DNA from: a virus
Direction: 5' to 3' (one strand)
Virus record (IMG/VR): IMGVR_UViG_3300035005_000004
Span: 1-56,357 of that record
DNA length: 56,357 nt
Shown here: positions 17,941 through 34,476 of the stretch, in pieces
Layout: every line of letters starts with the position of its first letter
How positions within the stretch are numbered: the first letter of the stretch is position 1
Made by a program: the position numbers and the translations under genes
Notes under the pieces: generated by a model
What the model was told of the DNA's origin: nothing
Seen by the model: the letters and a program-made list of their open reading frames with translations, nothing else
Database searches by the model: none

Positions 17941-18650
17941 ATCGTTCGCAAGCGTATCTTGCGAGTAGGCGACGGCCGCCGAAGATAGCCGTAGTCGGTT
18001 GAACGCGACAGGAAGGCCTCGTGAACAACGCACCTGCTTCGGCAGGCCGACTAAGGCAGCAATAGAGTTTCCGCGAGAGCGGACAGGGTTGGGCGCACCG
18101 GGACCGCGCACAAGTAGCTCAACAGGATAGAGCGACCGACTTCTAATCGGTAGGTTTCTGGTTCGAGTCCAGACATGTGCGCCATTCATCGCCGTCCATG
18201 ACGGCAACGACAGTCCGGCACCGGTAGCAGGATAATGGCCCGGTCGCGTTAAGGTCACCATGGGGGCGGTGGCGTCGGCAGAAATGCGAGATGAACCGGC
18301 AGATGCTTGCGGGGCCTGCCCGTCTCGTAGCGAGGCTCAGGAGCTATCCTGGCAGCCGGTGAAAGGCCGGCCCTCGCTGTATCATTCGAATTGCCCGCGC
18401 CAGCGCTCCATGACCTCAAGAGCCATGTGCCAGCGGATGCCAGTGTGGGTAAGCAAATCAGGAACGGCGGACGGACGAGGCTAAGGCCCGTGAGGTGCTT
18501 GGGAAAGTGTGGGAGGCGAAAGCCGATGTACCACTCCCCTGATCGCCAAGGCGGGGTGGGAAGCGAGCGGTCCAGTCCGTTCCTGATACCAATGCGGGGT
18601 CATCATGCCAGTAACGATCCCCCTGCAATGCTCAGAGCGGCGGTGGCGTT
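17941..18650 (+). ncRNA. Large structured RNA region, GOLLD/ROOL-like or new, with embedded tRNA
   Basis: About 710 bases between the early operon and a convergent gene contain no credible coding frame, yet many stems. Seen directly: 17947-17952/17958-17963; 17972-17976/17988-17992; a UUCG hairpin 18033-18046; a GAGA hairpin 18070-18083; tRNA 18108-18184; 18191-18196/18200-18205; 18220-18224/18240-18244; 18324-18334; 18338-18351; 18355-18371; a GAAA hairpin 18515-18524 inside GTGG/CCAC (18509-18512/18531-18534); and an 11-bp long-range stem 18457-18467/18577-18587. GNRA and UUCG loops, size, phage location and a tRNA inside match what is known of GOLLD and ROOL RNAs. Class membership is inference and the ends are approximate. 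Confidence 0.6.
18108..18184 (+). tRNA. tRNA-Arg (anticodon UCU)
   Basis: A complete cloverleaf: acceptor GCACAAG paired with CATGTGC (one A-A mismatch), D stem GCTC/GAGC, anticodon stem ACCGA/TCGGT with loop CTTCTAA (anticodon TCT), five-base variable loop, T arm TCTGG-TTCGAGT-CCAGA, discriminator G and an encoded CCA. It reads AGA, usually a rare codon in high-GC hosts. It sits inside the structured RNA region. Confidence 0.9.
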
Positions 18651-19016
18651 CTACTTCTTCGTTTGATGGGCTGCTGCATCAGATACTTCTCGTCCTCTTC
18701 GGTCGATGAAATCGCGAAGCGCGGTGTGGTTATCAGAAATCCGCTGCATCGCTTCTGGTGTCAGTTTGCCCTTCGATGCCTCTTCGAGAAGTTCAAGGTG
18801 GTAGGCGAAGTGAAGTGAAATCGGATAGAGGCTGCCACCTATCTTAGAGATCACATCAGATCGGTACTTGTAGTCGGAAAGGGCGAGCTCAACCGCCTTT
18901 TCGCGGAGGTGTCGCCTTTCATCTCTCCTGCCTTGAATCCATATCGTGATGATGGAAGTTGCGGAACCGATCAGCGCGCCGGCCAAAGCTGATACCAGCG
19001 GAACCCAAAACTCCAT
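18651..19016 (-). CDS. Membrane-anchored hypothetical protein, 121 aa
   Basis: ATG at 19016 is chosen because GGGGAG lies eight bases upstream. Residues 3-24 form one membrane helix (VPLVSALAGALIGSATSII); after a basic stop-transfer (QGRRDERRHLREK) the rest is helical and probably cytoplasmic. It is convergent with the structured RNA and divergent from the late operon, typical of a moron expressed in the lysogen. Function unknown. Confidence 0.7.
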   Translation of the reverse strand: MEFWVPLVSALAGALIGSATSIITIWIQGRRDERRHLREKAVELALSDYKYRSDVISKIGGSLYPISLHFAYHLELLEEASKGKLTPEAMQRISDNHTALRDFIDRRGREVSDAAAHQTKK

Positions 19017-19094
19017 GCCCATTCTCCCCAAGGCCCGTCATGAGAGCTTCGCCCAGGCACTGGCAAAGGGCAAGACGGCGTCACCTAGGGGCAT

Positions 19095-19637
19095 CTAGTA
19101 ATCGAGAAAGCCGGGGTTCATGCATGTGCGCTCGGCAATACTCCCGAAGGCCTCAATCAGGAATGGCGGCCTTGGTGCACGAGTTTCCTTCTGGATGATA
19201 TAGCGCAGGGCAAATGAACTGGAGCGGCCGTGCAGGTGGGAGAGAACACCTAATGCTCCAACTAGAACGTCGCGAGGATTCTCCGAAAAGTCGTCGTTAG
19301 GCCATTTCCCGCCGTCTCTTGCCGCCGACCAAACCAATTCAGCGGCTTGGAGCGATTCCCGTCTAAGAATTTCATTGGCGTCAGCCGACCACAGCTTCAA
19401 CAAATCGTGCCCGTAGGTGGACCGCACTTCATCTTGGTTCGCGCCATGGCGTATGAGTGGGTATTTGAAAAGTAACTCGGCTCCGTGCGCTAGCAGATGT
19501 AACGCCGGCGTCTGCAGCAATCTGCCTCTCGTTCTCCATTCCGTTGAATCGCACAGCACTTGGGCGGCTGTAAGATAGCGCTGCGCACCTGCAACAAACT
19601 GTCCTTGGATCGTCATGAAAAAATCGTTCTCATCCAT
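19095..19637 (-). CDS. Hypothetical HEPN-like protein, 180 aa
   Basis: ATG at 19637, no good ribosome site. All-helical composition with the stretch LHLLAHGAELLFKYPLIRHG and TYGHDLLKLW, which recalls HEPN-type helical proteins, though the R-x4-6-H catalytic motif is not clear. It stands alone and leftward between early and late genes, a usual place for lysogenic-conversion or defence genes. Role is inference from position. Confidence 0.6.
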   Translation of the reverse strand: MDENDFFMTIQGQFVAGAQRYLTAAQVLCDSTEWRTRGRLLQTPALHLLAHGAELLFKYPLIRHGANQDEVRSTYGHDLLKLWSADANEILRRESLQAAELVWSAARDGGKWPNDDFSENPRDVLVGALGVLSHLHGRSSSFALRYIIQKETRAPRPPFLIEAFGSIAERTCMNPGFLDY

Positions 19638-19768
19638 CGACTTTGCGCACTTCAGCCCCCTCTAAAGTAGACAAAAGATAGATCAGGTTAGATGCAGACA
19701 GGCAAGAAGACTGGCGATGCTGAGGAACAGGATATGCCGCCCCAGCGTAAACTGAGGCGGCTCGCTCG

Positions 19769-19828
19769 TCATATCAGATGTAGAATGGCAATGATCGCGT
19801 AAGCGATTGCCAGCAGTGCGTCGCGCAT
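19769..19828 (-). CDS. Micropeptide, 19 aa, hydrophobic
   Basis: ATG at 19828 follows AAGGAGG with about nine bases spacing, among the strongest ribosome sites in the window. The product MRDALLAIAYAIIAILHLI is nearly all hydrophobic and could insert in the membrane like small regulatory or toxic peptides. The stretch 19638-19949 holds no other gene I trust; it also contains the AGGAACA/TGTTCCT hairpin at 19880-19904. It could be a leader peptide or a chance frame. Confidence 0.4.
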   Translation of the reverse strand: MRDALLAIAYAIIAILHLI

Positions 19829-19949
19829 TTCGAGTGCCCTCCTTTCCAAGGCTAATTAGTCGGGACATGGCTTTCTGTCAGGAACAGCCGCTCCTTTTGT
19901 TCCTATAGGCGGGAGATGGTTTCAGCATCCACTGGCCCGAGATTGTGAA

Positions 19950-20351
19950 ATGAATCTCACTGACAAGCAGCAGCGCTTCGTCGCGGAATACCTAGTGGAT
20001 CTGAATGCTACCCAGGCAGCGATACGCGCTGGGTACAGCGAGAAGACGGCGCGGAGTGTCGGGTCCGAAAACCTGACGAAACCTGACATCGCGGATTTGA
20101 TCCGAAAGAAGCAGGAAAGAGTCGCCGAGAAAGCCGAATGGACGGCCGTGGACAGGCTTGCGGCCCTCAAGCGTATCTCCGATGCCGCCGAGAAGAACGA
20201 CGCCCGAGTGGCCGTCTCTGCCATCGCTGAGGCCAACAAGATGCAGGGCAGTCATGCCCCGACGAAGACTGAGGTCTCAGGTCCAGAAGGTGGCCCGATC
20301 CAGACAGAAAGCCGGACATGGCGCGACGTGCTGCGCAGCGAGAAGAGTTAG
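19950..20351 (+). CDS. terS: Terminase small subunit, 133 aa
   Basis: ATG at 19950. The opening MNLTDKQQRFVAEYLVDLN followed by ATQAAIRAGYSEKTARS is the standard Terminase_2-type DNA-binding helix-turn-helix. A helical oligomerisation part and a polar tail follow. It overlaps the large subunit gene by 34 bases. The protein recognises the packaging site and loads the large subunit; the pac or cos site is probably in or just before this gene. Confidence 0.85.
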   Translation: MNLTDKQQRFVAEYLVDLNATQAAIRAGYSEKTARSVGSENLTKPDIADLIRKKQERVAEKAEWTAVDRLAALKRISDAAEKNDARVAVSAIAEANKMQGSHAPTKTEVSGPEGGPIQTESRTWRDVLRSEKS

Positions 20352-21781
20352 AGGACAGCACGCACCTCACCAACCCGGCGCTTTATGACTTTTGGGAAGA
20401 GGTGTTCCTCGGCAGCGTCGACATTGCTGTCCTGCACGGTGGTCGATCCAGTTCGAAGACGAGGGATACCGCCTGCCAGTTGGTGAGGCTGATCAATCAC
20501 CTGACTGTCAAGATGCGCGTTCTTTGCATCCGGCGCTTTCAGAATCGCATTCAGGAATCGGTCTACACTGAACTGAAGTGGGCCATAAATCATCTCGGGC
20601 TCAGTGCCGCGTTCGACGTCATGAAGACGACGATCGTCCACAAGGCGACCGGTTCCGAGTTCATCTTCTACGGGATCGAGCGAAACCTCGACGACATCAA
20701 AGGCACGTCGGACATCGACATCCTTTGGGTGGAGGAGGCGGAGAAACTTACGGAAGAGCAGTGGGTCGTTATCGCGCCGACGATCCGCAAAGAGGACAGC
20801 CTCACGATCCTGCTCTTCAATCCGAAATTCGTTACGGACTATGTGTGGAAGAATTTCGTTGTAAGCACCCCCGAGCACTGCCTAGTCCACAAGATCGACT
20901 ACTCGGAAAACCCGTTCCTCTCGGACAAGGCCAAGCGCGACATTGCGGCAATGCAAGAGCGCGAGCCTGAGAAGTTCGAGCACGTTTACGGTGGCGTACC
21001 ACTCGGCGATAGCGAGCTTTCGATCTTCAAGCGGCGTTGGCTGGATGCCTGCGTTGATGCGCATACCGTCCTGAATGTCACGTTGACCGGCCGGAATACG
21101 ATCGGCTTCGATCCTGCCGATGACGGCGAGGATAATTGCGCCACTGCCGACAAGATCGGAGGCATATTCTTCGACGCCGAAGACTGGGCATCTGGCAAGG
21201 ATGAACTTGTTCAGAACGCCAAGCGGGTTTGGGCCAAAGCCAAACTCATGGGAGCGACAGTCTCTTACGACACGATCGGTGTGGGTGCTTTCGTCGGTGG
21301 CTACATCGATGAGCAGAACCGTGAAAACCAAGCGAAGGTTCAGCACTACGCATTCCATGCCGGCGGCGCGGTGGAAGATCCTGATAAGCCGAGCGATCCC
21401 TACAATCGGCAAAGCCCGCTCAACAAGGACGAGTATCTGAACCGCAAGGCACAGGCGTGGGCCAACACGGCTCGCCGCGCGATGTTGACGTTCAATGCGG
21501 TGACGCGGGGCCACGCCATCAAGCCTGAGGACGTTCTATCGTTCTCTTCGGGGATGGGTGTTGCCAAACTCGACGCACTATTCACCGAGCTATGCGTGCC
21601 GTGGTGGGTTGAAACCGAGGGCAAAAAACGGGTCGTGCCGAAGGTGAAGCTCAAGAAGGACCTGGGCGTGAAGTCTCACAACCTGGCGGATGCTGTGATC
21701 GCTGCGGACAATTCGCATGCCAAGCGCCCGATGATCATCAGCCCGACGGCGGTGACACAGACGGCAATGCCTGGAATCTGA
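20318..21781 (+). CDS. terL: Terminase large subunit, PBSX type, 487 aa
   Basis: ATG at 20318 inside the end of the small subunit gene. Walker A-like GGRSSSKTRD at 41-50, Walker B DILWVEEAE near 138-146, and a C-terminal RNase-H nuclease domain with acids in GFDPADDGEDNC and SYDTIGVG, ending near HNLADAVIAAD. The pattern fits the PBSX/Terminase_3 family. It pumps DNA into proheads and cuts it. Confidence 0.9.
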   Translation: MARRAAQREELEDSTHLTNPALYDFWEEVFLGSVDIAVLHGGRSSSKTRDTACQLVRLINHLTVKMRVLCIRRFQNRIQESVYTELKWAINHLGLSAAFDVMKTTIVHKATGSEFIFYGIERNLDDIKGTSDIDILWVEEAEKLTEEQWVVIAPTIRKEDSLTILLFNPKFVTDYVWKNFVVSTPEHCLVHKIDYSENPFLSDKAKRDIAAMQEREPEKFEHVYGGVPLGDSELSIFKRRWLDACVDAHTVLNVTLTGRNTIGFDPADDGEDNCATADKIGGIFFDAEDWASGKDELVQNAKRVWAKAKLMGATVSYDTIGVGAFVGGYIDEQNRENQAKVQHYAFHAGGAVEDPDKPSDPYNRQSPLNKDEYLNRKAQAWANTARRAMLTFNAVTRGHAIKPEDVLSFSSGMGVAKLDALFTELCVPWWVETEGKKRVVPKVKLKKDLGVKSHNLADAVIAADNSHAKRPMIISPTAVTQTAMPGI

Positions 21782-21790
21782 GGAAGCTTC

Positions 21791-23356
21791 ATGTTGTCTT
21801 GGTTCTGGCGCCGGAAGGCCGAAATAGTAACGGCCGAGGTGGCGCAACCTGCTCAACAGGTCATGAAGGTATCGCAGGAGGCTGTTGCCGCGACGCGCGT
21901 CGTTCAGGCGGAAGTCCGGCCGTTCAAGGCTGCAGTCCATCCCCCGTTGGTTGGAACGCATGACAAAGCCATCGCCATGGATACGGCGATGGACAGCATC
22001 AACGGCTGGGCCGCCAATGCCTATGCCAGCGCTGCGGCAACGTTCGGCTACCAGGGTTCGGCCTTCATGGGCTACCCGGTCCTGGCCGAACTCGCGCAGC
22101 GTCCGGAATATCGGATGATGTCGGAGATCATCGCCGGGGAATGCACTCGCCGCTGGATCAGATTTACGGCCAAGAATAAGGCCCAAGAGAAGGACAAGGC
22201 TGAGCGGATCACTGAACTCGAGGCGGAGTTCAAGCGCCTCAATGTCAGGGCGGTGTTCAAAAAGGTCGCCGAGACCGACGGGTACTTCGGGCGAGCTCAT
22301 ATCAGCATCGATACCGGCGATTCCAAAAATCCCGAAGAGATGGCCAAGAGTATCGGCGATGGCTGGGACAAGGTTTCGGCAGCCAAAATTGGAAAGGGCA
22401 GCATCAAGAAGTTGAAGCTCATCGAGCCGGTCTGGATATACCCGACGGGCTACAATGCGGCCGATCCTTTTGAGGATGGCTGGTACGACCCACAATCCTG
22501 GAACGTGATGGGCAGGAGCGTCCACAAGACACGGTTGCTGACGTTTATCGGCCGCCCGGTGCCGGATCTGCTGAAACCGGCCTATTCGTTCGGGGGCATC
22601 TCGCTGTCACAGATGGCGTATCCCTATGTCGAGAACTGGTTGAAAACTCGGCAGGGCGTCAACGACATCATCACGTCGTTTACGCAGTTCGTTCTGAAGA
22701 CAGGAATGGATGCCGTTCTGAGCGGTGGTTCGGCTGACAGCATGCTGGCCCGCGCGGCGATGTTCAACAATACGCGATCCAATCGCGGTTTGCTGATGAT
22801 CGACAAAGAGGCGGAGGAGTTCGAGAATGTCTCGTCGCCACTCAGTGGCCTCGACGCGCTCCAGGCTCAATCACAGGAGCATATGGCATCCGTTAGCCAT
22901 ATCCCAACGGTGAAGCTGCTCGGCGTCCAGCCGGCGGGCCTGAACGCATCGTCGGAAGGTGAGTTGCGGTCGTTTTATGACTGGACACACAGCTTCCAGG
23001 AGGACCTTTATCGCCAGAACTTGCATGCCCTCTTAGGTTTGGTGATGCTTTCGCTGTGGGGTGAAACCGACGATGGCATCGATTTCGAATTCGAGCCGCT
23101 GTGGTCTCTCGACGAGAAGGGCCTGGCTGAAGTCGAGAAGACGAAGGCCGAAACCCGCCAGATTGATATCGATTCCGGTGTTGTCTCGCCAGAGGAAGCG
23201 CGCAGTAGCCTAGCAAGCGATCCAGACAGCATGTATCAAAACCTCGATCCGGACGAAGTGCCGGACCTCCTCATTGAGGAGGAAGAAGGCCTTGAGCCGA
23301 AGGGCGGCCATCCTATAAATGGGCTATTCGACGACGGGAAAAAGGCCGCGGCGTGA
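21791..23356 (+). CDS. Portal protein, DUF1073 type, 521 aa
   Basis: ATG at 21791 nine bases after terL. Residues 65-440 follow the DUF1073 (PF06381) portal pattern: MDSINGWAANAYASAAATFG, RPEYRMMSEIIAGECTRRW, ETDGYFGRAHISIDTG, and the late segment HIPTVKLLGVQPAGLNASSE. Acidic tail EEEEGLEPKGG. It forms the ring for DNA passage and head-tail joining. Relatives of this family are sometimes fused to Acb1; here the Acb1-like domain is in a separate head protein. Confidence 0.85.
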   Translation: MLSWFWRRKAEIVTAEVAQPAQQVMKVSQEAVAATRVVQAEVRPFKAAVHPPLVGTHDKAIAMDTAMDSINGWAANAYASAAATFGYQGSAFMGYPVLAELAQRPEYRMMSEIIAGECTRRWIRFTAKNKAQEKDKAERITELEAEFKRLNVRAVFKKVAETDGYFGRAHISIDTGDSKNPEEMAKSIGDGWDKVSAAKIGKGSIKKLKLIEPVWIYPTGYNAADPFEDGWYDPQSWNVMGRSVHKTRLLTFIGRPVPDLLKPAYSFGGISLSQMAYPYVENWLKTRQGVNDIITSFTQFVLKTGMDAVLSGGSADSMLARAAMFNNTRSNRGLLMIDKEAEEFENVSSPLSGLDALQAQSQEHMASVSHIPTVKLLGVQPAGLNASSEGELRSFYDWTHSFQEDLYRQNLHALLGLVMLSLWGETDDGIDFEFEPLWSLDEKGLAEVEKTKAETRQIDIDSGVVSPEEARSSLASDPDSMYQNLDPDEVPDLLIEEEEGLEPKGGHPINGLFDDGKKAAA

Positions 23357-23523
23357 TCAAGCTTGATCTCTGGGATGTCATCAACGCGAGAACGCCGAAA
23401 GATCGGCCAATCGCTGATACGCTGAAGGATCGCGATGTCGAGCCTGCAAAGCCGGAAGCGAGCGCCCCGGAGCAAGACGGAAAAGGTGCTTCGCCCGGTT
23501 CGACCAAACGTCGGGATCGCTGA
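23353..23523 (+). CDS. Small acidic/basic linker protein, 56 aa
   Basis: GTGA overlap with the portal stop at 23353; TGA at 23521-23523. Starts MIKLDLWDVINARTPKDRP, then a charged low-complexity tail. It overlaps the first ~90 bases of the minor head gene in another frame. The tight coupling favours a real gene; function unknown. Confidence 0.5.
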   Translation: MIKLDLWDVINARTPKDRPIADTLKDRDVEPAKPEASAPEQDGKGASPGSTKRRDR

Positions 23524-24262
23524 AGCATACCGGAAGAAGCTTGATCGTCTCGTCGAGGCCATGCACGTCAGTGTGATGTACTGGGTCAAGGCGTCGTATC
23601 GAGCGAACGAGCCACGTGTTGCAATGGACGAGACGCCGGCGGATGTGCTTCGGCGCACCATGAAACAACTTTCGGCGCAGTGGCTGAAGAAGTTCGATAC
23701 CGCAGCCGAGAACTTGGCAGCCTACTTCGCGCAATCGGTTGAGAAACGATCCACCGCGGCGCTGAAGAAGATTCTTCGCGACGGCGGCATGTCGGTCGAG
23801 TTCAAGATGACGCCGGTGATGCGGGATGTTGTCGACGCCACGGTTCACCAGAATGTTGCCCTGATCAAATCGATCCCCGCCCAGTATCTGGACCAGGTCG
23901 AGGGAATGGTGATGCGATCGGTGCAGACCGGCCGCGATCTCGGGCAACTGGCGTCCGATCTGGAGACAAGGCTGGGCGTCACCAAGCGCCGGGCCGCGTT
24001 TATATCCTTGGATCAGAACAACAAGGCTACGGCGGCTTTCAATCGGGTCAGGTTGCAGGAAGTCGGGATCGACGAGGCCATCTGGACGCACAGCGGTGCC
24101 GCCAGGGAGCCCCGCCATACACATCTGAAGGCCGGGCGCGAAAAGACACGCTATCAGGTTTCGAAAGGTTGGTACGATCCCGCTGTGAAGCAATTCATTC
24201 AGCCCGGCGAACTGATCAACTGCAGATGCGTCGGCAGGCCGGTGATCAAGGGATTTTCGTGA
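23435..24262 (+). CDS. Minor head protein (Mu gpF / SPP1 gp7 family), 275 aa
   Basis: ATG at 23435 after AAGGA. The C-terminal half carries the family pattern: SDLETRLGVTKRRAAFISLD, then EAIWTHSGAAREPRHTHLKA and ELINCRCVGRPVI. The N-terminus is basic. Such proteins bind the portal and enter the head with DNA or guide prohead assembly. Confidence 0.8.
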   Translation: MSSLQSRKRAPRSKTEKVLRPVRPNVGIAEAYRKKLDRLVEAMHVSVMYWVKASYRANEPRVAMDETPADVLRRTMKQLSAQWLKKFDTAAENLAAYFAQSVEKRSTAALKKILRDGGMSVEFKMTPVMRDVVDATVHQNVALIKSIPAQYLDQVEGMVMRSVQTGRDLGQLASDLETRLGVTKRRAAFISLDQNNKATAAFNRVRLQEVGIDEAIWTHSGAAREPRHTHLKAGREKTRYQVSKGWYDPAVKQFIQPGELINCRCVGRPVIKGFS

Positions 24263-24456
24263 TGGGATTGATTGCATCGCCCCCACCGGTTCTTCCAAAA
24301 GACCCGGCTGAAAGGGCCCGCGCCTTGAAGGTAATGCGCTCCATCGATCGTCGAACAAACTACGATCTGCCCGGTGGCTCGTTCCGCAGTCCTGGCATGA
24401 TCATGATCTTTGGCATTTGTTTCGCCATTTGGTCCGCTGTCGCGATGGGCTGGTAG
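24262..24456 (+). CDS. Small C-terminally anchored membrane protein, 64 aa
   Basis: TGATG coupling to the minor head gene at 24262. Starts MGLIASPPPVLPKDPAERA; residues 45-62 (MIMIFGICFAIWSAVAMGW) form one C-terminal membrane helix. Unusual inside a head operon; function unknown. Confidence 0.6.
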   Translation: MGLIASPPPVLPKDPAERARALKVMRSIDRRTNYDLPGGSFRSPGMIMIFGICFAIWSAVAMGW

Positions 24457-24487
24457 CCCAGACGCCGAGTGAAAAGAGGGTTTCGTG

Positions 24488-24658
24488 ATGATTGTCAGCG
24501 AAATCCGAATAGCCGTGCCATTGGCGCTCCGGGCGAAACTACGGGCCCGCATGGTCTTCTGGAAGCTTTGTGCTCTCTTCGGTTGGCAACCTTCAGAAGC
24601 CGACTACGACAGATTGGCGCGTTGGATACTCGACCGCTTGCGTCTCACGGTCGAATAG
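24488..24658 (+). CDS. Hypothetical small protein, 56 aa
   Basis: ATG at 24488 follows AGAGGG by seven bases; TAG at 24656-24658. Starts MIVSEIRIAVPLALRAKLR; amphipathic and Leu/Arg-rich. Not in the frames of its neighbours. The clear ribosome site supports it; function unknown. Confidence 0.5.
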   Translation: MIVSEIRIAVPLALRAKLRARMVFWKLCALFGWQPSEADYDRLARWILDRLRLTVE

Positions 24659-24686
24659 ACCGCACTCCTAACACTGCGAGAATTCT

Positions 24687-26432
24687 ATGCCGGCTGTCTC
24701 TGAGGCTCAGCGGAAGGCGATGTTTGCCGCCGCCGCTGGCAAATCTACGCTCGGCATCCCAAGGGCCGTTGGCGAAGAGTTCGTTGGAAAGGACGCGGCC
24801 GAAGCACGCCCGCTCTATGTTCGCCGCTCGTTGCTGAACACCCGTGAATTCCTGGCATGGGCGATCCTGCAGGGCTTCGACGAGACGCTGAAGGCCGACG
24901 ATCTCCATGTGACAGTGGCCTACAGCAACGAGCCGGTCGATTGGGACCGGTTCAAGCCGCGCGAGAACACTGCCGTCGCCATCCTCGGCCCCCGATCGGT
25001 CGAGGAGCTTGGTGACAAGGGAGCGGTCTGCCTTCTGTTTCAGAGTGACGAACTCGCGGAACGCCACCGCACCTTTGAGGACGGCGGCGCATCTTGGGAT
25101 TGGCCGCAATATAGGCCGCACGTCACGATTACCTATTTCGGAGCGGGCGTCGATCTGACCAAGGTCGCGCCATATGACGGCCCCTTGGAATTCGGACCCG
25201 AGGTCTTCGAGGAAATCGATGACAACTGGTTGGATCGCGTGAAGGGTGCGCAGGATTGCATCGCGTTGGACCGGGCCACGGTTCGCTCGATCGATGCCGA
25301 CGGCCACCTCCACGTCGAGCGGACCCCGATTAGCAAGGCGGTGGTCAACCCATACTATGGCCGTGAGGTTCCAGATTTCGAACGGCTTGGCCTCGATCCA
25401 GAGCACATCTACCGGCTGTATCGTGATCCCAAGGAACTGGCGCGTGCCGCGTCGAGCTTTGAGGGCAAGCCGCTCTTGATCCGCCACAAGCCGGTCAACG
25501 CCGATGATCATCCCAAGGAACTAACCGTCGGCACAATCGGAAGCCCGGTCAGCTTCGACGCGCCCTATCTCACCGCGCCGTTGACGGTGTGGGATGGCAA
25601 GGCAATCGAGTTGATCGAGACCGACGAACAACGAGAGCTTTCAGCCGGGTATCGATACCGCCCGGATATGACACCGGGCACTACGCCGGATGGGGAAGCT
25701 TTTGACGGCACGATGAGAGACATCGGGGGTAATCATTTAGCCCTCGTTGAGCAGGGCCGCGCAGGCCCGGACGTTCTTGTCCAAGATAGCGCACTCACCC
25801 CACGTCCCATGGAGAACATCACAATGGCGACTTCGCCGAAAGCAAAGGCGCGCGCGGCGAGGGTCGCGGCGTTCAAAACTGCCCTCGACGGTAAACTGGC
25901 GGCAGACGCCAATATCGACGAGGTGATCAAGACGCTCATCGCCCAGGACGAAATGGAGCCTCGCGGCGAAGACGAGGAGCATGAAGACAAGAAGGCCGAG
26001 GACGAAGAAGAAGACGAAAAGGCCAAGGGCGCCAAGGACGACGGCGAGGAAGTCGCCGAAGACGAGGATGATGAGGACGACAAGGAGGAGAAGGTCAGCA
26101 AGTCCGCCATGGATGAAGCGATCCGAACCTCTGCCGAAGCCGTCGAGAAGCGTGTTCGGAAACAGTTCAACGACATCCGCATCGCCGAGGACGAGGTTCG
26201 CCCCTACGTCGGCAAAATCGCCGTGGCCTGCGACAGCGCCGACAAGGTCTATCGTCACGCCCTGGATGCCATGAAGATCGATATCGCGGGTCTTCACCCC
26301 TCGGCATATCGCTCCCTGTTGAAGGCTCTCCCCGTGCCTTCGACTTCCGCCGCTCCCGTCACCACTGCCATGGATGCCGCCGCTCAGGACGCTTATTCGC
26401 AGCGTTTCCCGAACGCCGGCCGCCTCAAGTAA
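24687..26432 (+). CDS. Acb1-like 2H phosphodiesterase fused to DUF2213 head-maturation/scaffold protein, 581 aa
   Basis: ATG at 24687. Four parts: a short start (MPAVSEAQRKAMFAAAAGKS); residues ~45-185 with two HxT motifs, HVTVAY (H74, T76) and HVTITY (H145, T147), spaced as in T4 Acb1, a 2H phosphodiesterase that degrades CBASS cyclic nucleotides; residues ~205-375 a DUF2213 part (FEGKPLLIRHKPV, RELSAGYRYRPDMTPG, DIGGNHLALVEQGRAGPDV), known as a prohead protease/scaffold; then an acidic low-complexity stretch (~420-480) and a helical scaffold-like C-terminus. Lies between portal and capsid genes. Maturation cleavage might free the enzyme; that is inference. Confidence 0.8.
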   Translation: MPAVSEAQRKAMFAAAAGKSTLGIPRAVGEEFVGKDAAEARPLYVRRSLLNTREFLAWAILQGFDETLKADDLHVTVAYSNEPVDWDRFKPRENTAVAILGPRSVEELGDKGAVCLLFQSDELAERHRTFEDGGASWDWPQYRPHVTITYFGAGVDLTKVAPYDGPLEFGPEVFEEIDDNWLDRVKGAQDCIALDRATVRSIDADGHLHVERTPISKAVVNPYYGREVPDFERLGLDPEHIYRLYRDPKELARAASSFEGKPLLIRHKPVNADDHPKELTVGTIGSPVSFDAPYLTAPLTVWDGKAIELIETDEQRELSAGYRYRPDMTPGTTPDGEAFDGTMRDIGGNHLALVEQGRAGPDVLVQDSALTPRPMENITMATSPKAKARAARVAAFKTALDGKLAADANIDEVIKTLIAQDEMEPRGEDEEHEDKKAEDEEEDEKAKGAKDDGEEVAEDEDDEDDKEEKVSKSAMDEAIRTSAEAVEKRVRKQFNDIRIAEDEVRPYVGKIAVACDSADKVYRHALDAMKIDIAGLHPSAYRSLLKALPVPSTSAAPVTTAMDAAAQDAYSQRFPNAGRLK

Positions 26433-26444
26433 GGAGATCCAGCA

Positions 26445-26945
26445 ATGTTCCAGAGGCAGGTCAATCTCACCCAGGCGCCGGCCGTTGCCGGTCAGGTCGC
26501 CTCCGTCAATCCGCGCCATTCGGCTCTTACCGTGGAAGGCGGCTTTTGCGCCGGTGCCAATGGCGTCACCGTCGGTCTGTTCGCATGGACGGCCAATGAC
26601 ACCAATGGCGTTCCGCGGCTCCTGAACAACACCGGTTCGGGTTTGCCCACTGGTATCGTGATCCGGACCGAACAGGCCATCATCACGACGTATCTGACCG
26701 AGTTCGGCAACACGATCCCATCCGGCTTCCCGGCCGGCGATATCATCAACGGCGGTGATGTCTGGGTGAACAATGCCGGCGCCGGTGCGGCCACGGTCGG
26801 CATGAAGGCGTTCGCCAATCTCACGACTGGTGTGATCTCCTTCGCAGCCGCTGGCGCCACTGTCGCCGGCAGCATCGAGACCAAGTTCTATGCGGCCACC
26901 GCTGGTGCTGCGTCGGAACTCATCAAAATGACCGACACGATCTAA
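26445..26945 (+). CDS. Head decoration / cement protein, 166 aa
   Basis: ATG at 26445 after AAGGAG. Small, Ala/Gly/Thr-rich beta protein (VASVNPRHSALTVEGGFCAG, GDVWVNNAGAGAATVG, KAFANLTTGVISFAAAG) directly before the major capsid gene, as for structural cement proteins of DUF2184-type phages. It likely coats and stabilises the head. Confidence 0.7.
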   Translation: MFQRQVNLTQAPAVAGQVASVNPRHSALTVEGGFCAGANGVTVGLFAWTANDTNGVPRLLNNTGSGLPTGIVIRTEQAIITTYLTEFGNTIPSGFPAGDIINGGDVWVNNAGAGAATVGMKAFANLTTGVISFAAAGATVAGSIETKFYAATAGAASELIKMTDTI

Positions 26946-26956
26946 GCGAGGCAGCC

Positions 26957-28003
26957 ATGATCAAGCACGTTGATTTCACCCGCCTTGAGCAGGACTGGGG
27001 TATTGTCGTCCTCGCTCAGGACTACCTTCCGCTCGATTACAAGCGAAACTATCAGGTCGCACTGGATGCCCAGCCGACGCTCGCCGTTGGTCCCGGCTCC
27101 AGCGGTGTCCCGGCGCTGTTCACGACCTATGTCGATCCGGAAGTGATCCGGGTTCTTCAGTCTCCCAACAAGGGCGCTGACATCCTCGGCGAACGCAAGG
27201 AAGGCGACTGGACGACCCAGACAGCCATGTTCCTCGTCGTGGAAAACACCGGTGAGGTGTCCAGCTACGGCGACCAGAACAATGTCGGCATGTCGGACGC
27301 GAATGCCACGTTCCCGCAGCGCCAGTCCTATCTGTTCCAGACCATCATCGAATATGGCGATCTTGAACAGGCTCGCATGGCGACGGCAAAGCTGAACTGG
27401 GTTGCTGAAAAGCAGATGTCGGCCGCACTAACGCTGAGCAAGTTCCAGGATTACACCTATCACAACGGTGTTGCTGGTCTGCAGAACTATGGCCTGCTCA
27501 ATGATCCGGCCCTGTCGGCTCCGCTGACCCCGGCCACGAAGGCAGCGGGTGGCGTGACCTGGATCACGGGCGCCGGCGTCATCAATGCCACGGCCAATGA
27601 AGTGTTCGCGGACATCCAGGCCATCTTCAACAAGTTGGTGGCACAGACCGCCGGCCGTGTTGAGGCGACTGATGACATGACCCTGGCGCTGCCTCCGGGC
27701 TCTGCCGTGGCCATGACCTCGACCAACTCGTTCGGCGTCAATGTCACCGATCTTCTGGCCAAGAACTTCCCCAAGCTGAAGGTGAAGACCTCGCCGCGCT
27801 ATGCCACCGGTGCCGGCAATGTCGTCCAGCTCATCGCCGATCGTTTCGACGGTCAGGACACCGGCTTCTGCTCCTTCAATGAAAAATCCCGGGATCATGC
27901 CATCGTTCGCGAGCTCTCGGCCTGGAAGCAGAAGAAGACGGCGGGTAGTTGGGGTGCGGTCATTAGATACCCAGCGGCAGTAGCGCAGCTATTGGGCGTT
28001 TGA
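26957..28003 (+). CDS. Major capsid protein, DUF2184 type, 348 aa
   Basis: ATG at 26957. Length and pattern match DUF2184 capsid proteins: VVENTGEVSSYGDQNNVGMS, SYLFQTIIEYGDLEQARMA, NGVAGLQNYGLLNDP, and the end SWGAVIRYPAAVAQLLGV. HK97 fold expected. Followed by an inserted HNH gene instead of the next head gene. Confidence 0.85.
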   Translation: MIKHVDFTRLEQDWGIVVLAQDYLPLDYKRNYQVALDAQPTLAVGPGSSGVPALFTTYVDPEVIRVLQSPNKGADILGERKEGDWTTQTAMFLVVENTGEVSSYGDQNNVGMSDANATFPQRQSYLFQTIIEYGDLEQARMATAKLNWVAEKQMSAALTLSKFQDYTYHNGVAGLQNYGLLNDPALSAPLTPATKAAGGVTWITGAGVINATANEVFADIQAIFNKLVAQTAGRVEATDDMTLALPPGSAVAMTSTNSFGVNVTDLLAKNFPKLKVKTSPRYATGAGNVVQLIADRFDGQDTGFCSFNEKSRDHAIVRELSAWKQKKTAGSWGAVIRYPAAVAQLLGV

Positions 28004-28021
28004 ACGGGAAAACGAATATGG

Positions 28022-28056
28022 TATACTCGGAGTTCAAAGATTGATTTCCGAGTATA
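28022..28056 (+). promoter_or_regulatory. 10-bp hairpin before the HNH gene
   Basis: TATACTCGGA (28022-28031) pairs perfectly with TCCGAGTATA (28047-28056), loop 15 bases, and the HNH ATG follows four bases later with no ribosome site. Such a hairpin could limit translation of the HNH gene from long late transcripts, or act as a weak terminator after the capsid gene. Hairpin seen; role inferred. Confidence 0.5.
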
Positions 28057-28059
28057 TCA

Positions 28060-28872
28060 ATGTCAAAGAAGTCTGGAACAGATAAATCATGTCAGAACTG
28101 CTCTAATTCGTACTATGTCCCGGCATGGCGAGAGCCTAGCAATTTCTGTTCAATGGCTTGCTTATACGAATGGCGCCGTATTCAACCTCGTCGCACAACC
28201 ACTGTTTCGTTGGTTTGTGCGGAATGTGGATCGCCATACGATGTGCCGACATGCCGAGAAAAGAAGTCCAGATTTTGTTCTCTCGAATGCACTGGAGCCA
28301 ACACGCTCCGGTATCATGGGAATAAGATCAGGGCAGCCTCCATTGAAAATCGTCGGGAGTTCGCTTTCTCCGAAAGTGAGAAAATCGAGAGAAAAAAGCT
28401 CTCTCAACGGCAAGGTTATGCCAAACACCGACCGAGAATTCGGGAAAAGCAAAGATCTGCCTACCAAGAAACTGCTGCCGATCGAAAAATCAGGGCCAAA
28501 GCGGATCGCGTGAGCAATCCTGAAAAATTCAAGCAGTGGCGAAAGAATTCACGGGCTCGCAACGGCGACATAATCCGTGAAAGACGGCGTAATGACTACC
28601 GAAAAAATCGAGCTTGTTACATTGCCAACGCTAGGCAACGTGAATTTGACCTAAAGGCAAGAACACCCTCTTGGGCTGATATGAATGCGATCGCAGAGAT
28701 CTATGCGGAAGCTGATCGCCTTACTCGCGAAACCGGCATCTCGCATCATGTGGATCATATCTATCCTCTTCGAGGAAAGACTTGCAGCGGTCTGCACGTT
28801 CACACGAATTTGAGAGTAGTCCCCGCGTCTATCAACCTTGCGAAGTCCAATTCGATGCCGGAAGGCATCTAG
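28060..28872 (+). CDS. HNH homing endonuclease with zinc motifs, 270 aa
   Basis: ATG at 28060. Two N-terminal zinc-type units (CQNCSNSYYVP...FCSMAC and CAECGSPYDVP...FCSLEC), a long basic helical middle, and a C-terminal HNH core HHVDHIYPLRG...HTNLRVVP...N-x-x-K. It uses more AT-rich codons (aag, aat, tct) than its neighbours and splits the capsid operon, signs of a selfish insertion. No intron or intein is seen, so it is free-standing. Confidence 0.85.
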   Translation: MSKKSGTDKSCQNCSNSYYVPAWREPSNFCSMACLYEWRRIQPRRTTTVSLVCAECGSPYDVPTCREKKSRFCSLECTGANTLRYHGNKIRAASIENRREFAFSESEKIERKKLSQRQGYAKHRPRIREKQRSAYQETAADRKIRAKADRVSNPEKFKQWRKNSRARNGDIIRERRRNDYRKNRACYIANARQREFDLKARTPSWADMNAIAEIYAEADRLTRETGISHHVDHIYPLRGKTCSGLHVHTNLRVVPASINLAKSNSMPEGI

Positions 28873-28894
28873 TATCGTAAAAAGGAAACTCACC

Positions 28895-29320
28895 ATGGCG
28901 AAAACGGTAACCGTGGCTTGCCGCCTCCCGCATGGGCTGGTTCTCCAACTCCAGCGTCAAACGAGCCGTCCGGAGCCCGTCATGGGCGGCGGCTCGCGAG
29001 ACGTGCCGGTGTGGGAGAAGGTGGGTGATACCATCACCCTGAACGGATGGTCTCACGCTGTCGACCGCGCCGCGCCGAACCTGATCATGAACGGCTACGC
29101 GCTGACCTACAACGTCGATGCCGACTTCATGGACAAATGGATGGAGCAGAACGCCGATCATCCGGCCGTGAAGTCGGGCAACATCATGGTCATGACCCGG
29201 GCAGGCGACATCAAGGCCCGCACCCAGGATCATGTCGGCGAACGTGTCGGTTTCGAGCCGCACGATCCGAAGAACCCGATCCCCGAGTTCAAGCGCCGCG
29301 TCGAAACCGCTGCGGCCTGA
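28895..29320 (+). CDS. Hypothetical head/neck protein, 141 aa
   Basis: ATG at 28895 with AAAGGA upstream. Starts MAKTVTVACRLPHGLVLQL; the middle NLIMNGYALTYNVDADFMD suggests a small structural protein. It follows the capsid gene (apart from the HNH insert) and precedes the DUF4054 gene, so a head-completion or decoration role is likely. Confidence 0.7.
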   Translation: MAKTVTVACRLPHGLVLQLQRQTSRPEPVMGGGSRDVPVWEKVGDTITLNGWSHAVDRAAPNLIMNGYALTYNVDADFMDKWMEQNADHPAVKSGNIMVMTRAGDIKARTQDHVGERVGFEPHDPKNPIPEFKRRVETAAA

Positions 29321-29328
29321 GGTCTGAC

Positions 29329-29742
29329 ATGGCTATCACGTTCGATTATGCAGCATGGGCTGCGGCCTATCCTGAGTTCTCGAACGTGACAGAACCTCAG
29401 ATCACGGCGAGAATTCTGCCGAGTGCCCAGCAAGCCATTGCCGGCTTCATCGGAAATGTGATCGATCCTCAGCAACAGACCAACTTCCTGTGGCTGATGG
29501 TTGCGCATCTCTGCAAACTCAACTTTGGCGTAGTCGGTAGCCCGGCAACGGGTCTGGTCGGCCGCATCTCCAGTGCGACCGAGGGCAGTGTCTCGGTGGA
29601 CGTCGAGTTCACCACGAGCCTGGCCCAGGCCTGGTACGCCCAAACCACATACGGCGCGCTGTTCTGGCAGCTTGCCCGTCCGTACTGGCTTGGCGGGTTC
29701 AGCTATCCAGCGCCGCCGCCAACGCCGTTCCCCTATCGGTAA
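29329..29742 (+). CDS. Head-tail adaptor, DUF4054 type, 137 aa
   Basis: ATG at 29329. The opening MAITFDYAAWAAAYPEFSNV, then NFLWLMVAHLCKL and GRISSATEGSVSVDVEF...QTTYGALFWQLARPY, is the typical DUF4054 pattern. These proteins attach to the portal as head-completion (neck) adaptors. Pro-rich end. Confidence 0.8.
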   Translation: MAITFDYAAWAAAYPEFSNVTEPQITARILPSAQQAIAGFIGNVIDPQQQTNFLWLMVAHLCKLNFGVVGSPATGLVGRISSATEGSVSVDVEFTTSLAQAWYAQTTYGALFWQLARPYWLGGFSYPAPPPTPFPYR

Positions 29743-29757
29743 ATCAGGATGAAGATC

Positions 29758-30177
29758 ATGGACGAACAGATGTTCAATGCGCTTCGCAAGGAAGTGCGCG
29801 ATTTCAAGATCGAGACTGAGGATCGGCTTTCCATCGTCGAGGCTCGCCTCGATCGTATCGATGAAGCTCTCGCTGGCGGTGCCCAGGTGATGAACATCGC
29901 AAATGTGACCGTTGCGGCCCCAGTTGAACCGGCGGCAGTGACAGAGCCCGATCATCAGCCCGTCGCAGATGACGGGGGCGCAACTGATCCAGCGGGTCAT
30001 GCCGGCGATGAGCCTGCGGCTGCCGCAGCATCTGTGGCGCCGGCCTCCGAGGAGCCCGCTTCTGATGACGCTCTCGCCACTGCCGATCTATTGAAGGCCG
30101 AAGCGAAATCCGAAGAACCGGCTAAGCCCGAAGAACTACAGGTGCTGCCGCTGAAGGGCTCCAAGGCCAAGAGCTGA
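29758..30177 (+). CDS. Coiled-coil protein with Ala/Pro/Glu-rich tail, 139 aa
   Basis: ATG at 29758 follows AGGA by eight bases; an ATG at 29749 is the alternative. Residues 1-40 form a charged helix (LRKEVRDFKIETEDRLSIVE); residues 50-130 are low-complexity, Ala/Glu/Pro/Asp-rich and probably disordered. Between neck genes, so perhaps a virion or assembly factor. No family recognised. Confidence 0.65.
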   Translation: MDEQMFNALRKEVRDFKIETEDRLSIVEARLDRIDEALAGGAQVMNIANVTVAAPVEPAAVTEPDHQPVADDGGATDPAGHAGDEPAAAAASVAPASEEPASDDALATADLLKAEAKSEEPAKPEELQVLPLKGSKAKS

Positions 30178-30614
30178 TGGTCGCGTTCAGCGGCGGCAAC
30201 AAACTCGCCGCCAAGCTGGCCGAAATCGCGCAGAGCGTCAGCAATGCGTCGAGCGTCGAGATCGGCTTCCTCGCCGGAGCGACTTATCCGGATGGCACCT
30301 CCGTTCCCTTCGTGGCGGCGATGAACGAATTCGGCAATGAGAAGTCACCGCCGCGCCCGTTCTTCCGAGGCATGATCGAGGCGAAGTCTGAGGAATGGCC
30401 GGACGCCATCGGCGGGTTGCTCGTCGAAAACGGCTATAACGCCGACAAGACCCTCGGGCAGACCGGTGCAGCGATCAAGGGCCAGCTTCAAGGCGCGATT
30501 GTCGAATATGTCGGGCCTCCGCTCAGCGAGGCGACCATCGCCCGCAAAGGCAACGACAAGCAGCTCATCGAAACCAGCCACATGCTGAACAGCGTCGACT
30601 GGCGCGTGAAGTAG
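30177..30614 (+). CDS. Neck protein, HK97 gp10-like, 145 aa
   Basis: TGATG overlap at 30177. The segment VEIGFLAGATYPDGTSVPFV, then NEFGNEKSPPRPFFRGMIE and the end LIETSHMLNSVDWRVK, fits gp10-like head-tail joining proteins. Acts at the neck with the DUF4054 protein. Confidence 0.75.
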   Translation: MVAFSGGNKLAAKLAEIAQSVSNASSVEIGFLAGATYPDGTSVPFVAAMNEFGNEKSPPRPFFRGMIEAKSEEWPDAIGGLLVENGYNADKTLGQTGAAIKGQLQGAIVEYVGPPLSEATIARKGNDKQLIETSHMLNSVDWRVK

Positions 30615-30622
30615 GCCAAGCA

Positions 30623-31009
30623 ATGAACCTTCATGGGATTGTAGCGCCGGCAATTGGTGCGGTGAACCCGTTTGTCCCCGCGACGTTGCGACGTTCAACG
30701 GGATACACCACGGCGCCCGACGGATCGCAGATTCCGGCTTACTCCGATTTCGCCATCTCTGTTCAGGTCCAAGCTCTAACGTCCTCGGATCTTCGTTTGC
30801 TCGACGGTCTCAACATCCAGGGCGTTGACCGTGCCGTTTATCTCAACGGTGTGGCTATGGGTGTCGTTCGCAATGTCGGGGCTGGCGGCGATCTCTTCGT
30901 ATTCCCAAACGGAACGTTACCCGAGGGCAATGTGTGGCTCGCTGCGCACGTCCTCGAACGCTGGCCCGATTGGTCAAAAGTGGCTCTGACGCTCCAGGTC
31001 TCACCATAG
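30623..31009 (+). CDS. Head-tail joining / tail completion protein, 128 aa
   Basis: ATG at 30623. Small beta-rich protein (FAISVQVQALTSSDLRLLDGL, VDRAVYLNGVAMGVV, WLAAHVLERWPDWSKV) in the place of neck stoppers in sheath-bearing phages. The exact family is not certain. Confidence 0.65.
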   Translation: MNLHGIVAPAIGAVNPFVPATLRRSTGYTTAPDGSQIPAYSDFAISVQVQALTSSDLRLLDGLNIQGVDRAVYLNGVAMGVVRNVGAGGDLFVFPNGTLPEGNVWLAAHVLERWPDWSKVALTLQVSP

Positions 31010-31018
31010 GAACGGCAC

Positions 31019-31314
31019 ATGTTCTCTCAATCCTACGCGCCGCTCGGATATCAGCAGATCACGAGCCTTGCCGCGTCTACAGCACTTACCGTGCCTCCAG
31101 GCGCGAATGTTGCGCTCATCGACTGCGAAGCTCAGGCGGTCCGTTGGCGGTCCGTTGGCGGGACGATGGCACGGCTCCCACGGCGGCAATCGGCATGACC
31201 ATGGCGGTGGCTGATGCGCCACTTCTGTTCTCGGCCAATCTGGGCGCACTGCGCTTCATCGAGCAGACGGCCGGCGCAAAACTGAACGTCGCCTTCTACA
31301 GGCTGGCCGGGTGA
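31019..31314 (+). pseudogene. Small neck/head gene broken by an 11-bp duplication
   Basis: ATG at 31019 with AGGAAC upstream opens MFSQSYAPLGYQQITSLAAS, but the frame ends early at 31198 (59 aa). The block 31137-31158 is two exact copies of CGGTCCGTTGG. Taking one copy out restores a 94-aa frame running on through GTAPTAAIGMTMAVADAPLL to the stop at 31312-31314, which overlaps the next GTG start. So the gene is recently broken, or the sequence has an error, or length change is regulated. Intact product: small beta-rich virion-type protein of unknown role. Confidence 0.75.
31137..31158. repeat. 11-bp tandem duplication
   Basis: Two perfect copies of CGGTCCGTTGG head to tail, followed by the first three bases of a third. 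The extra copy shifts the reading frame of the gene around it. Confidence 0.9.
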
Positions 31315-32039
31315 GCATCGCGCCAGCGCTGACCGAGACGGCGGTACTGACCGCGCTACGGTCGTTCCTGATCTCGATCCTGCCTTCTGGCGTTGAAGTC
31401 GTGCGGGCACAGGTGAACCGAGTGCCGCCGCCGAAGGCACCCGATTACGTAGTGATGAACCCAATCGGACGTCGCCGGCTCTCGACCAACGTCGATACCT
31501 ATACCGATGTCAGTTTCACCGGATTGATTGCCGGCCAAGTCATGACCGTGACGGCCGTTCAATTCGGCACGATAGCCGTAGGGCAGACCGTCTTTGGCGT
31601 CGGTGTTGCCGCCGGCACTACAGTCGCGGCAATCGTTTCAGGGACAGGTGGCATCGGAACCTACCAAGTCAGCCCGGCGCAAACGGTTGGCTCTGGCAAA
31701 CTCGCATCGGGCTTTGAGACTTTTCTACAACCAACTGAAATCACTATTCAACTGGACGTCCACGGCGACAACTCCGCCGACAACGCTCAGACCATCACGA
31801 CGCTATTTAGAGACCAATATGCAGTCGCGGCTTTTGCTGCATTGAACACCGGCGTCGCCCCGATCCATGCGGACGATCCGAAGCAAATCCCGTTCTGGAC
31901 CGGCGAGCAGCAAGTCGATGACCGCTGGGTCATCGATGCGCGGCTACAAGCCAACATCACACTGCAAACGCCGCAGGACTTCGCGGATCAGTTGCAGCCC
32001 ACACTCATCAACGTCGAAGCGGCCTATCCGGCCACCTGA
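31311..32039 (+). CDS. Neck/tail terminator protein with inserted beta module, 242 aa
   Basis: GTGA overlap at 31311. The flanks ([40 protein letters not shown] and later [19 protein letters not shown]) read as a neck terminator of sheath-bearing phages. Residues ~67-131 (31509-31703) are an inserted module with [19 protein letters not shown] and [16 protein letters not shown], also found in the sheath and baseplate J proteins. Removing it leaves a normal-length terminator. Confidence 0.75.
31509..31703 (+). repeat. Virion beta module, copy in neck protein
   Basis: About 65 codons with the pattern T(V)TAV-x-x-GT-x-AVGQ, G-x-GV-x-AGT, then GTGG-x-GTY-x-VS-x-x-QTV. Homologous to the three modules listed in the sheath and baseplate J genes. 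Confidence 0.75.
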
Positions 32040-32053
32040 GAAGGAACAAACCC

Positions 32054-34006
32054 TTGTCGTCGATACCTGCAAGCCTTCTTGTGAACGTGATTCCGAACGT
32101 TCTCAACGCCGGCGGCAACTCGCTCGTGATGAACGGGCTGGTGCTGACCCTGAACACCCGCGTACCCGTCGGCCAAGTGCTGTCGTTCCCGAATGATGGC
32201 ACTTCCGTATCAAAGTATTTCGGCCCGTCGTCGGACGAAGTCGGGATCGCGAACGTCTATTTCCAGGGCTTCGATAACTCGACCCAGAAGCCTGCGGCCA
32301 TCCTGTTCACCCGGTTCCCCGCCGCTGGTGCCTCGGCCTATTTGCGCGGTGGTCCGGTCAACACATTGACCATTCCTAAGCTTCAGGCGCTCACTGGCGC
32401 TCTTTCGGTGGTCGTGGATGGTTATACCTATTCGAATGCATCGGTGAGTCTGGCTGCCGCGACGAGCTATTCGTCGGCTGCCGCCATCATCGCAACCGCG
32501 CTGAACAACACTCTGCCTTCGGCGGCGAGCGTGACCGGCGCCATTGCTGCCGGCACCGCTACCGTGACCGGCAACATCGCTGGCAACGTGCTGACAGTGA
32601 CCGCTATCGGGTCGGGCAATCTGGTGCCCGGCGCGGCGATCAGTGGCACCGGCGTGACGGTTGGCACGGTGATCGTGTCTCAGCTTTCGGGCACCACCGG
32701 TGGGCTCGGCACCTATGCAGTGTCGAAGGCCCAGTCAGTTCCCGATGGCACCGTTGTCACGGCAGCCTATGGCACGTTGACCGTCTCGGCCGTCTCGTCT
32801 GGTACTCTGTCCGTCGGGCAGGCGATTAGTGGCACCGGTGTGACCGCCAACACGCAGATCACGGGTCTTGGCACTGGCACAGGCCTTGTCGGTACCTACT
32901 ACGTCAACCTGACCCAGACCGCCGCAAGCACCACGATCACGGCCACAGGCGCACCGCTGAGCGTTTCCTATGACACGATCTCCGGTGGCTTCATCATCAC
33001 CTCCGGGTCAGTCGGCATCGGCTCTACTGTGGCTTTCGCAACTGGCTCGCTAGCCCCGCAGGTTTTCCTGACTGTCGACACCGGTGCCATCCTTTCGCAG
33101 GGTAGCGCTCCGCAGGCACCTGCCGCCTTCATGACGAACACCATCAATCTCACCCAGAACTGGGCGAACTTCATGACGATCTTCGATCCTGATGGTGGTA
33201 ACGGCTGCCAGCAGAAATTGGCTTTCGCCCAGTGGACCAACGCACAGAACAAGCGCTGGGGTTATGTCTCTCTCGATACCGATGTGACGCCGACGCTTTC
33301 CGCTCAGGCCACCACGAGCTTCGGGTACTTACTGGCTCAGGCTGGCTACAACGGCACGTGCCCGATCTATGTCTTGGCAACCGATGTGCAGCGCATCGAC
33401 GCCTTCGTGTGCGGTGCCGCGGCATCGATCGATTTCCAGGCTACCAATGGCCGGATCACCTTCGCCTTCAAGGGGCAGGGCGGTCTTGTCGCCGGTGTCA
33501 CCACAGCGACGGTCGCCAGCAATCTGATCGCGAACTCGTACAATTTTTACGGCGCTTACGCGACGGCGAACCAGCAATTCCGCCAGTTCCAGAACGGTAC
33601 TGTCTCAGGCATCTTCCAGTGGCTGGACAGCTATGAGAATCAGATCTGGCTGAACAATGCGCTCCAGCTAGCCCTGATGAACCTGCTCGCGAATGCGAAA
33701 TCTGTCCCATACAACCCTGATGGGTACGCACTGATCCGGCAGGCCTGCATGGACCCGATCAACGCCGGACTGAACTTCGGCGCGATACGGCCCAATGTCA
33801 CTCTGTCGGCCCAGCAGGCCTCGCTTGTGAACACTGCCGCCGGCCTTCCTGTCAGCGACACGCTGCAAATCCAGGGCTGGTATCTGCAGGTCAAGGACGC
33901 CGCTCCGATCGTCAGGCAGGCCCGCCAATCGCCGCCGATTTCCTTCTGGTATATGGACGGCGGCTCGGTCCAGCACATCGACCTTGCATCTATCCTCGTC
34001 CAGTAA
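32054..34006 (+). CDS. Contractile tail sheath protein, DUF3383 type, 650 aa
   Basis: TTG start at 32054 after AAGGAACAAACCC. N-terminal part ([39 protein letters not shown]) and C-terminal part ([42 protein letters not shown]) fit DUF3383 sheath proteins. Residues 170-236 and 239-299 are two tandem copies of the beta module also present in two other virion proteins; they should form an extra outer domain on each sheath subunit. Makes the phage a myovirus. Confidence 0.85.
32561..32761 (+). repeat. Virion beta module, sheath copy 1
   Basis: Residues ~170-236 of the sheath: [46 protein letters not shown]. Same pattern as the modules in the neck and baseplate J genes. Confidence 0.75.
32768..32950 (+). 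repeat. Virion beta module, sheath copy 2
   Basis: Residues ~239-299 of the sheath: [54 protein letters not shown]. Directly follows copy 1. Confidence 0.75.
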
Positions 34007-34034
34007 CCAACCGCCCTAGATCGGGAGATTTCGC

Positions 34035-34466: not shown

Positions 34467-34476
34467 GGCTTGATCC

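Follow-up and report, generated by a model that had tools for sequence, protein, structure and literature searches.

Acb1, the anti-CBASS nuclease defined by Hobbs et al. (2022), is typified by T4 gp57B and by the Acb1 of Erwinia phage FBB1 (PDB 7t26/7t27), free proteins of 152 aa with the 2H phosphoesterase fold. In T4 Acb1, the catalytic tetrad consists of H44/T46 and H113/T115 (PMC9117128). The T4 acb1 gene (57B; T4 73952-74410, L172) directly adjoins ipI, which encodes a head-packaged internal protein. The same domain is found within head-gene blocks as a C-terminal part of DUF1073 portals (Pam3, PDB 8hds; Pseudomonas psageB2; Rhizobium phages). Iyer et al. (2022) infer that phage 2H domains on MuF and portal proteins are probably packaged and injected to act against nucleotide-based immunity (PMC9503650). 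Their 2H-MuF and 2H-portal fusions, together with polyvalent proteins, embody the idea considered here, namely, a signal-degrading domain borne by a packaged structural protein. T4 Alt and IPI, and P1 Dar, are also head-packaged counter-defence or takeover proteins that are delivered along with the DNA, but they are separate cargo, not fused to the maturation protease.

The locus described here lies in a 56,357-nucleotide IMG/VR virus record (IMGVR_UViG_3300035005_000004), the whole of which we refer to as the window. Its head genes are ordered TerL-portal-MuF-fusion-cement-MCP (Table 1), and the single Acb1 copy of the window is located on the fusion gene at the position of the head-maturation protease. 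Given the presence of a probable DUF3383 sheath and Baseplate_J, this is a contractile-tailed phage; a megablast search of positions 17000-36000 against phages returned zero matches. E217, a relative of Pa193, has the matching arrangement portal-MuF-DUF2213-cement-MCP; the Pa193 (gp24) and E217 proteins belong to the same carrier family as the window protein but lack Acb1. The E217 portal (L205, 1125-3422, 765 aa) carries another enzyme on a DUF1073 portal, a C-terminal inorganic pyrophosphatase (PF18823, residues 635-753, E 3.1e-43) situated C-terminal to the region built from cryo-EM data (97-528). Just 3' of the major capsid gene of the window, at 28060-28872, there is a 270-aa ORF that resembles HNH endonucleases by eye (HHVDHIYPLRGK), without a Pfam match, and is perhaps an inserted homing endonuclease.

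Table 1. Features of the fusion gene and of the surrounding head and tail genes in the window.
Feature	Position	Strand	Basis
Terminase large subunit (Terminase_3)	20318-21781	+	Pfam
Portal, Phage_portal_3 (DUF1073), without the Acb1 domain found on many relatives	21791-23356	+	Pfam
MuF-like head morphogenesis protein	23435-24262	+	Pfam, PHROGs
Fusion gene, 581 aa: Acb1 nuclease, DUF2213 head-maturation protease, acidic scaffold tail	24687-26432	+	Pfam, PHROGs
N-terminal segment, residues 1-40, begins MPAVSEAQRKAMFAAAAG	24687-24806	+	Weak phrog_16759 match
Acb1 domain, residues 42-183, 2H phosphoesterase fold	24810-25235	+	Pfam PF23474, model
First catalytic motif H74-V-T76 (T4 H44/T46)	24906-24914	+	Alignment
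Second catalytic motif H145-V-T147 (T4 H113/T115)	25119-25127	+	Alignment
C-terminal lid region E175..W181 (T4 E141, W147)	25209-25229	+	Alignment with T4
DUF2213 protease domain, residues 200-368	25284-25790	+	Pfam; invariant H267, S319, H350
Scaffold-like tail, residues 371-581; acidic stretch ~420-471	25797-26429	+	Sequence
Capsid cement protein (XM1 gp53/E217 gp24/Pam3 gp6 family)	26445-26945	+	Pfam
Major capsid protein	26957-28003	+	PHROGs
Probable tail sheath (DUF3383)	32054-34006	+	
Baseplate_J	41279-42715		

The original prediction placed an Acb1-like enzyme ahead of a DUF2213 protease and an acidic tail, and this layout is borne out, both Pfam profiles being matched in that order and followed by the acidic stretch. 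The Acb1 profile (PF23474) is matched with E 1.4e-35 and 122.6 bits, against a curated cut-off of 27, and the same stretch also matches the C-terminus of the portal profile phrog_146 (PHROGs). By sequence, the nearest solved chains in the PDB are the Pam3 portal (8hds, residues 466-619) and FBB1 Acb1 (7t26). The Acb1 and DUF2213 domains were modelled separately. The AlphaFold2 model of the former, built from 46 homologs with pLDDT ~95 within the domain, superimposes on FBB1 Acb1 with the cGAMP product bound (7t27; Z 17.7, rmsd 1.8 A, 135 aligned residues). A model devoid of the 2H fold, which would have refuted the assignment, was therefore not obtained. The Pam3 portal matches this domain in sequence, yet is missing from the structural match lists; its Acb1 part may be unmodelled. 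The HVTVAY and HVTITY motifs that had led to the assignment are indeed present at residues 74-79 and 145-150, with their histidines 71 residues apart, a spacing close to the 69 residues between H44 and H113 of T4 Acb1 (PMC9117128).

The HxT/HxT tetrad is intact in the window (H74, T76, H145, T147). Among 168 sampled sequences, H74 and H145 are each conserved in 99.4%, T76 in at least 99%, and position 147 is T or S throughout. Alignment with T4 provides equivalents of the base-stacking residues Y12 (Y44), F107 (W139) and W147 (W181), and of the adenine-contacting E141 (E175). T4 W74, an aromatic stacking residue that is non-catalytic and variable (F in FBB1), pairs with E106 where the alignment is poor; an equivalent is probably absent. 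Assignment of the domain to the Acb1 type is thus supported by the profile, the predicted fold, the tetrad and most of the base-contacting residues, whereas hydrolysis of CBASS signals by it is inferred.

Because 2H enzymes vary in substrate, the domain might instead be an active packaged phosphoesterase directed at 2',3'-cyclic RNA ends (tRNA repair), cyclic ADP-ribose or some other defence messenger. The lack of a conserved W74 leaves room for such a substrate, LigT and CPDases are among the weaker structural matches, and Iyer et al. discuss RNA-repair roles of phage 2H domains (PMC9503650). Nevertheless, E. coli LigT is a clearly lower match (Z ~11) than Acb1, the equivalents of E141 and of the lid residue W147 are retained, and each of the 10 Acb1 homologs tested by Hobbs et al., T4 Acb1 and nine others, hydrolysed both 3'3'-cGAMP and cAAA, so we regard a different substrate as quite unlikely. 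Still harder to sustain is the notion that the domain is a non-catalytic structural module of the head. A 2H fold could persist without catalysis, and one fused copy (L118) carries Asn where the second catalytic His is expected; in the window, however, the tetrad is intact and comprises some of the most conserved positions of the family, so that a catalytically dead domain is not favoured. Furthermore, in E217, which shares the head gene order, the portal, MuF and DUF2213 proteins are all devoid of Acb1; this implies that a head of this kind can be assembled without the domain. We consider a purely structural role highly improbable.

In the carrier, DUF2213 (PF09979) is matched above the cut-off (E 3.9e-51, 173.8 bits; Pfam), and PHROGs names this second part of the protein a head maturation protease (E 8e-131). 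The best structural match of the DUF2213 model (pLDDT 91) is the T4 gp21 capsid protease (5jbl, Z 10.4), followed by herpesvirus assemblins; Foldseek alone gave only a weak match (E 0.012). H267, S319 and H350 are invariant in the 33-37 aligned DUF2213 homologs, consistent with a Ser-His-His triad, and on this basis proteolytic activity is inferred. The profile of this domain also matches Pa193 gp24 (9b40; E 7.5e-31). In mature Pa193 heads, residues 286-326 of gp24 are visible on the inside at the five-fold vertices, and the protein is detected in virions by LC-MS, although neither its cleavage nor the fate of its protease half has been determined (PMC11042391). Thus, this DUF2213 homolog stays, at least partly, in mature virions.

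The fusion is not confined to the window. It is present in four further loci, namely, two viral contigs (L016/L173 and L175) and the isolate genomes of Bosea vaviloviae SD260 (L113/L174) and Bosea sp. UNC402CLCol (L116), all of which have the portal-MuF-[fusion]-cement-MCP arrangement and an Acb1-free portal. Given that these loci are divergent, share the gene order and include two isolate genomes, an assembly artefact, that is, a chimeric contig or a sequencing error, can be excluded. The direct joining of Acb1 to a head-maturation protease is confirmed as a real fusion, far beyond chance. The fusion proteins have about half of their residues in common, and between the window and L016 the Acb1 part (55% identity) is as conserved as the protease part (56%). 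The dN/dS values for this pair, ~0.21 for Acb1 and ~0.30 for the protease, with dS near saturation, indicate that purifying selection acts on each of the two domains. Upstream of the ATG of the fusion gene, the frame is closed by a TAA at 24669, and residues 1-40 are common to the window and L016 from Met1 but are missing from L113 and L175. Possible internal starts include TTG194, with AGGA 10 nt upstream, and the GTG codon of V185; a separate protease initiated at TTG194 is not excluded by the sequence, but the start signal is not strong.

To place this arrangement among other Acb1 contexts, we used a sample of 80 viral and 73 genome loci obtained from an Acb1-alignment search, which is redundant and biased by the queries. 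Most of the Acb1 domains in this sample are C-terminal extensions of DUF1073 portals, and 12 are free. Others reside on Portal_Mu-type portals (one checked with Pfam) and, in L179, on a PF04860 portal; Acb1 is thus found on three portal families. Combinations with proteases involve Peptidase_S78 (L028/L097, Xanthobacter), Peptidase_S78_2 (L027; L241, along with ChaB; L118, along with Nudix) and probable proteases (L038, L178). Acb1 also co-occurs with Alt-like and ART-PolyVal ADP-ribosyltransferases (L022, L186, L188) and, in a 2698-aa polyvalent protein (L202, 1035-9131), with staphylococcal nuclease and LPD38 domains. The partners are mostly head-interior proteins or kinds thought to be injected. 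An exception is a Rubellimicrobium protein (L143, 4354-5388) that combines Acb1 with a Gp49/HigB-like toxin domain. In the Nudix-Acb1-protease fusion (L118, 3823-6978), the second catalytic His is replaced by Asn, and this Acb1 is possibly inactive.

In a quick tree, partner labels are scattered and many branches are weak. Given that L038 falls within a portal clade that does not include the remaining protease fusions, Acb1 was probably captured by proteases at least twice, a conclusion drawn from sequences alone. Several proteins labelled as prohead proteases (from DSS3P8, Edwardsiella ZHS and a Rhizobium plasmid) were considered as further fusions but proved to be free Acb1. The names 'prohead protease' or 'phage prohead protein' are wrongly attached to free Acb1 on Rhizobium/Agrobacterium plasmids (L168, L169, L171) and in phages (L004, L003), and were perhaps inherited from fusions; no phage head genes are found among the listed neighbors of free Acb1 on Rhizobium plasmids.

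The repeated joins in unrelated phages suggest that virus particles incorporate, and perhaps carry, the enzyme. Fusion could alternatively reflect no more than fixed-ratio late co-expression with head proteins, or mosaic recombination of neighboring head genes, with the location of the product being irrelevant. Stand-alone versions of Acb1 exist, and short-range transfer would be easy because Acb1 often forms the C-terminus of the portal encoded ahead of this block. Such explanations do not readily account for the acquisition of Acb1 by several unrelated carriers, mostly of head-interior or injected types, or for the retention of the DUF2213 fusion through ~50% divergence, and appear unlikely to us. 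Portal and MuF fusions of 2H domains, and the idea that they are packaged, have been published already, and therefore the concept is known. As far as could be found, the DUF2213 carrier and the spread of Acb1 over protease families are new. In contrast to the Pam3, psageB2 and Rhizobium proteins, where the carrier is a portal with a C-terminal Acb1, the carrier here is a head-maturation protease and Acb1 is N-terminal. The 2H partners named in the accessible sections of Iyer et al. (2022) are MuF and portal, with a capsid serine peptidase mentioned only for Nudix, and no Acb1-protease fusion was found there (PMC9503650); the available text of Hobbs et al. (2022) does not mention such fusions either. 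No published Acb1-protease fusion was found, in a literature search that left most subscription papers out.

We propose that the product of the fusion gene is a catalytically competent Acb1-type cyclic-oligonucleotide nuclease on the N-terminus of a head-maturation protease/scaffold. The protease part, with its predicted gp21/assemblin fold and putative Ser-His-His triad, and the scaffold tail would bring the nuclease into the procapsid; some of the fusion protein would stay, or be cut free, within the mature head; and the packaged nuclease would be on hand as soon as the next infection begins, when the Acb1 part would hydrolyse the 3'-5' linkages that follow adenosine in the cyclic di- and trinucleotides of CBASS, blunting the alarm. 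Behind this proposal stand the observed fusion, the two predicted folds, the conserved active sites and the repeated presence of Acb1 on numerous proteins of the head interior, whereas hydrolysis of CBASS signals, procapsid entry, cleavage and delivery with DNA are inferred; the proposal as a whole is, in our judgment, an even call. Presence in the virion and arrival before the CBASS signal are plausible inferences, strengthened by the convergent fusions and by analogy with Pa193 gp24. No cleavage site that would free the Acb1 domain was identified. Since portals are left behind in the virion once ejection is over, delivery of a portal-fused enzyme would depend on cleavage. Moreover, T4 Acb1 is encoded by a separate gene and is active ~15 min into infection (PMC9117128), which indicates that pre-loading is not required for function.

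The association with proteases in particular leaves room for another possibility, that the nuclease acts in the phage-producing cell, destroying the signal where and when the protease that triggers it appears, with the virion enzyme being incidental. According to a review (PMC12409349) that cites Richmond-Buccola 2024, the prohead protease of Bas13 interacts with a CBASS sensor and brings about growth arrest, and the title of a 2026 preprint (cited in PMC13424991) indicates that phage proteases activate CBASS. The joining of Acb1 to DUF2213, S78 and S78_2 proteases fits this scenario. It leaves unexplained, however, the Acb1 domains on ART, ART-PolyVal and LPD38 polyvalent proteins, which are thought to be injected; portal fusions far outnumber protease fusions in the sample; and CBASS sensing is known from the Bas13 report but has not been shown for a DUF2213-type protease. 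We regard action confined to the assembly site as possible rather than probable. Similarly tentative is the broader suggestion that Acb1 was repeatedly wired into different protease families because the protease is a CBASS trigger supplied with its own antidote, perhaps also loaded into the virion. Packaging for delivery is favoured by the ART and polyvalent partners, assembly-site action suits the protease partners, and the two may be compatible.

CBASS genes are present in some of the hosts. Bosea sp. UNC402CLCol (L208, with an E2 match) and Xanthobacter autotrophicus DSM 432 (L209), both of which carry prophages with protease-fused Acb1, have adjoining genes for a CD-NTase and a SAVED-HNH effector; no SMODS match was found in Bosea vaviloviae. 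In 150 genomes sampled from the order of B. vaviloviae, 14 had SMODS, which gives the background rate. With only three hosts to compare, the presence of CBASS genes in two of them has no statistical weight.

Work on Acb1 has so far dealt with a free cytoplasmic enzyme. In the window it forms part of a head-maturation protease, within a set of carriers that spans at least three portal families, several protease families and ART/polyvalent proteins. Were heads to contain it as a built-in component, phages would be able to blunt CBASS before any protein synthesis. If it acts at the assembly site, the antidote would be attached to the very protein that is reported to set off CBASS. These two readings make opposite predictions, and therefore when and where CBASS is countered becomes testable, using isolate prophages in hosts that carry CBASS genes.
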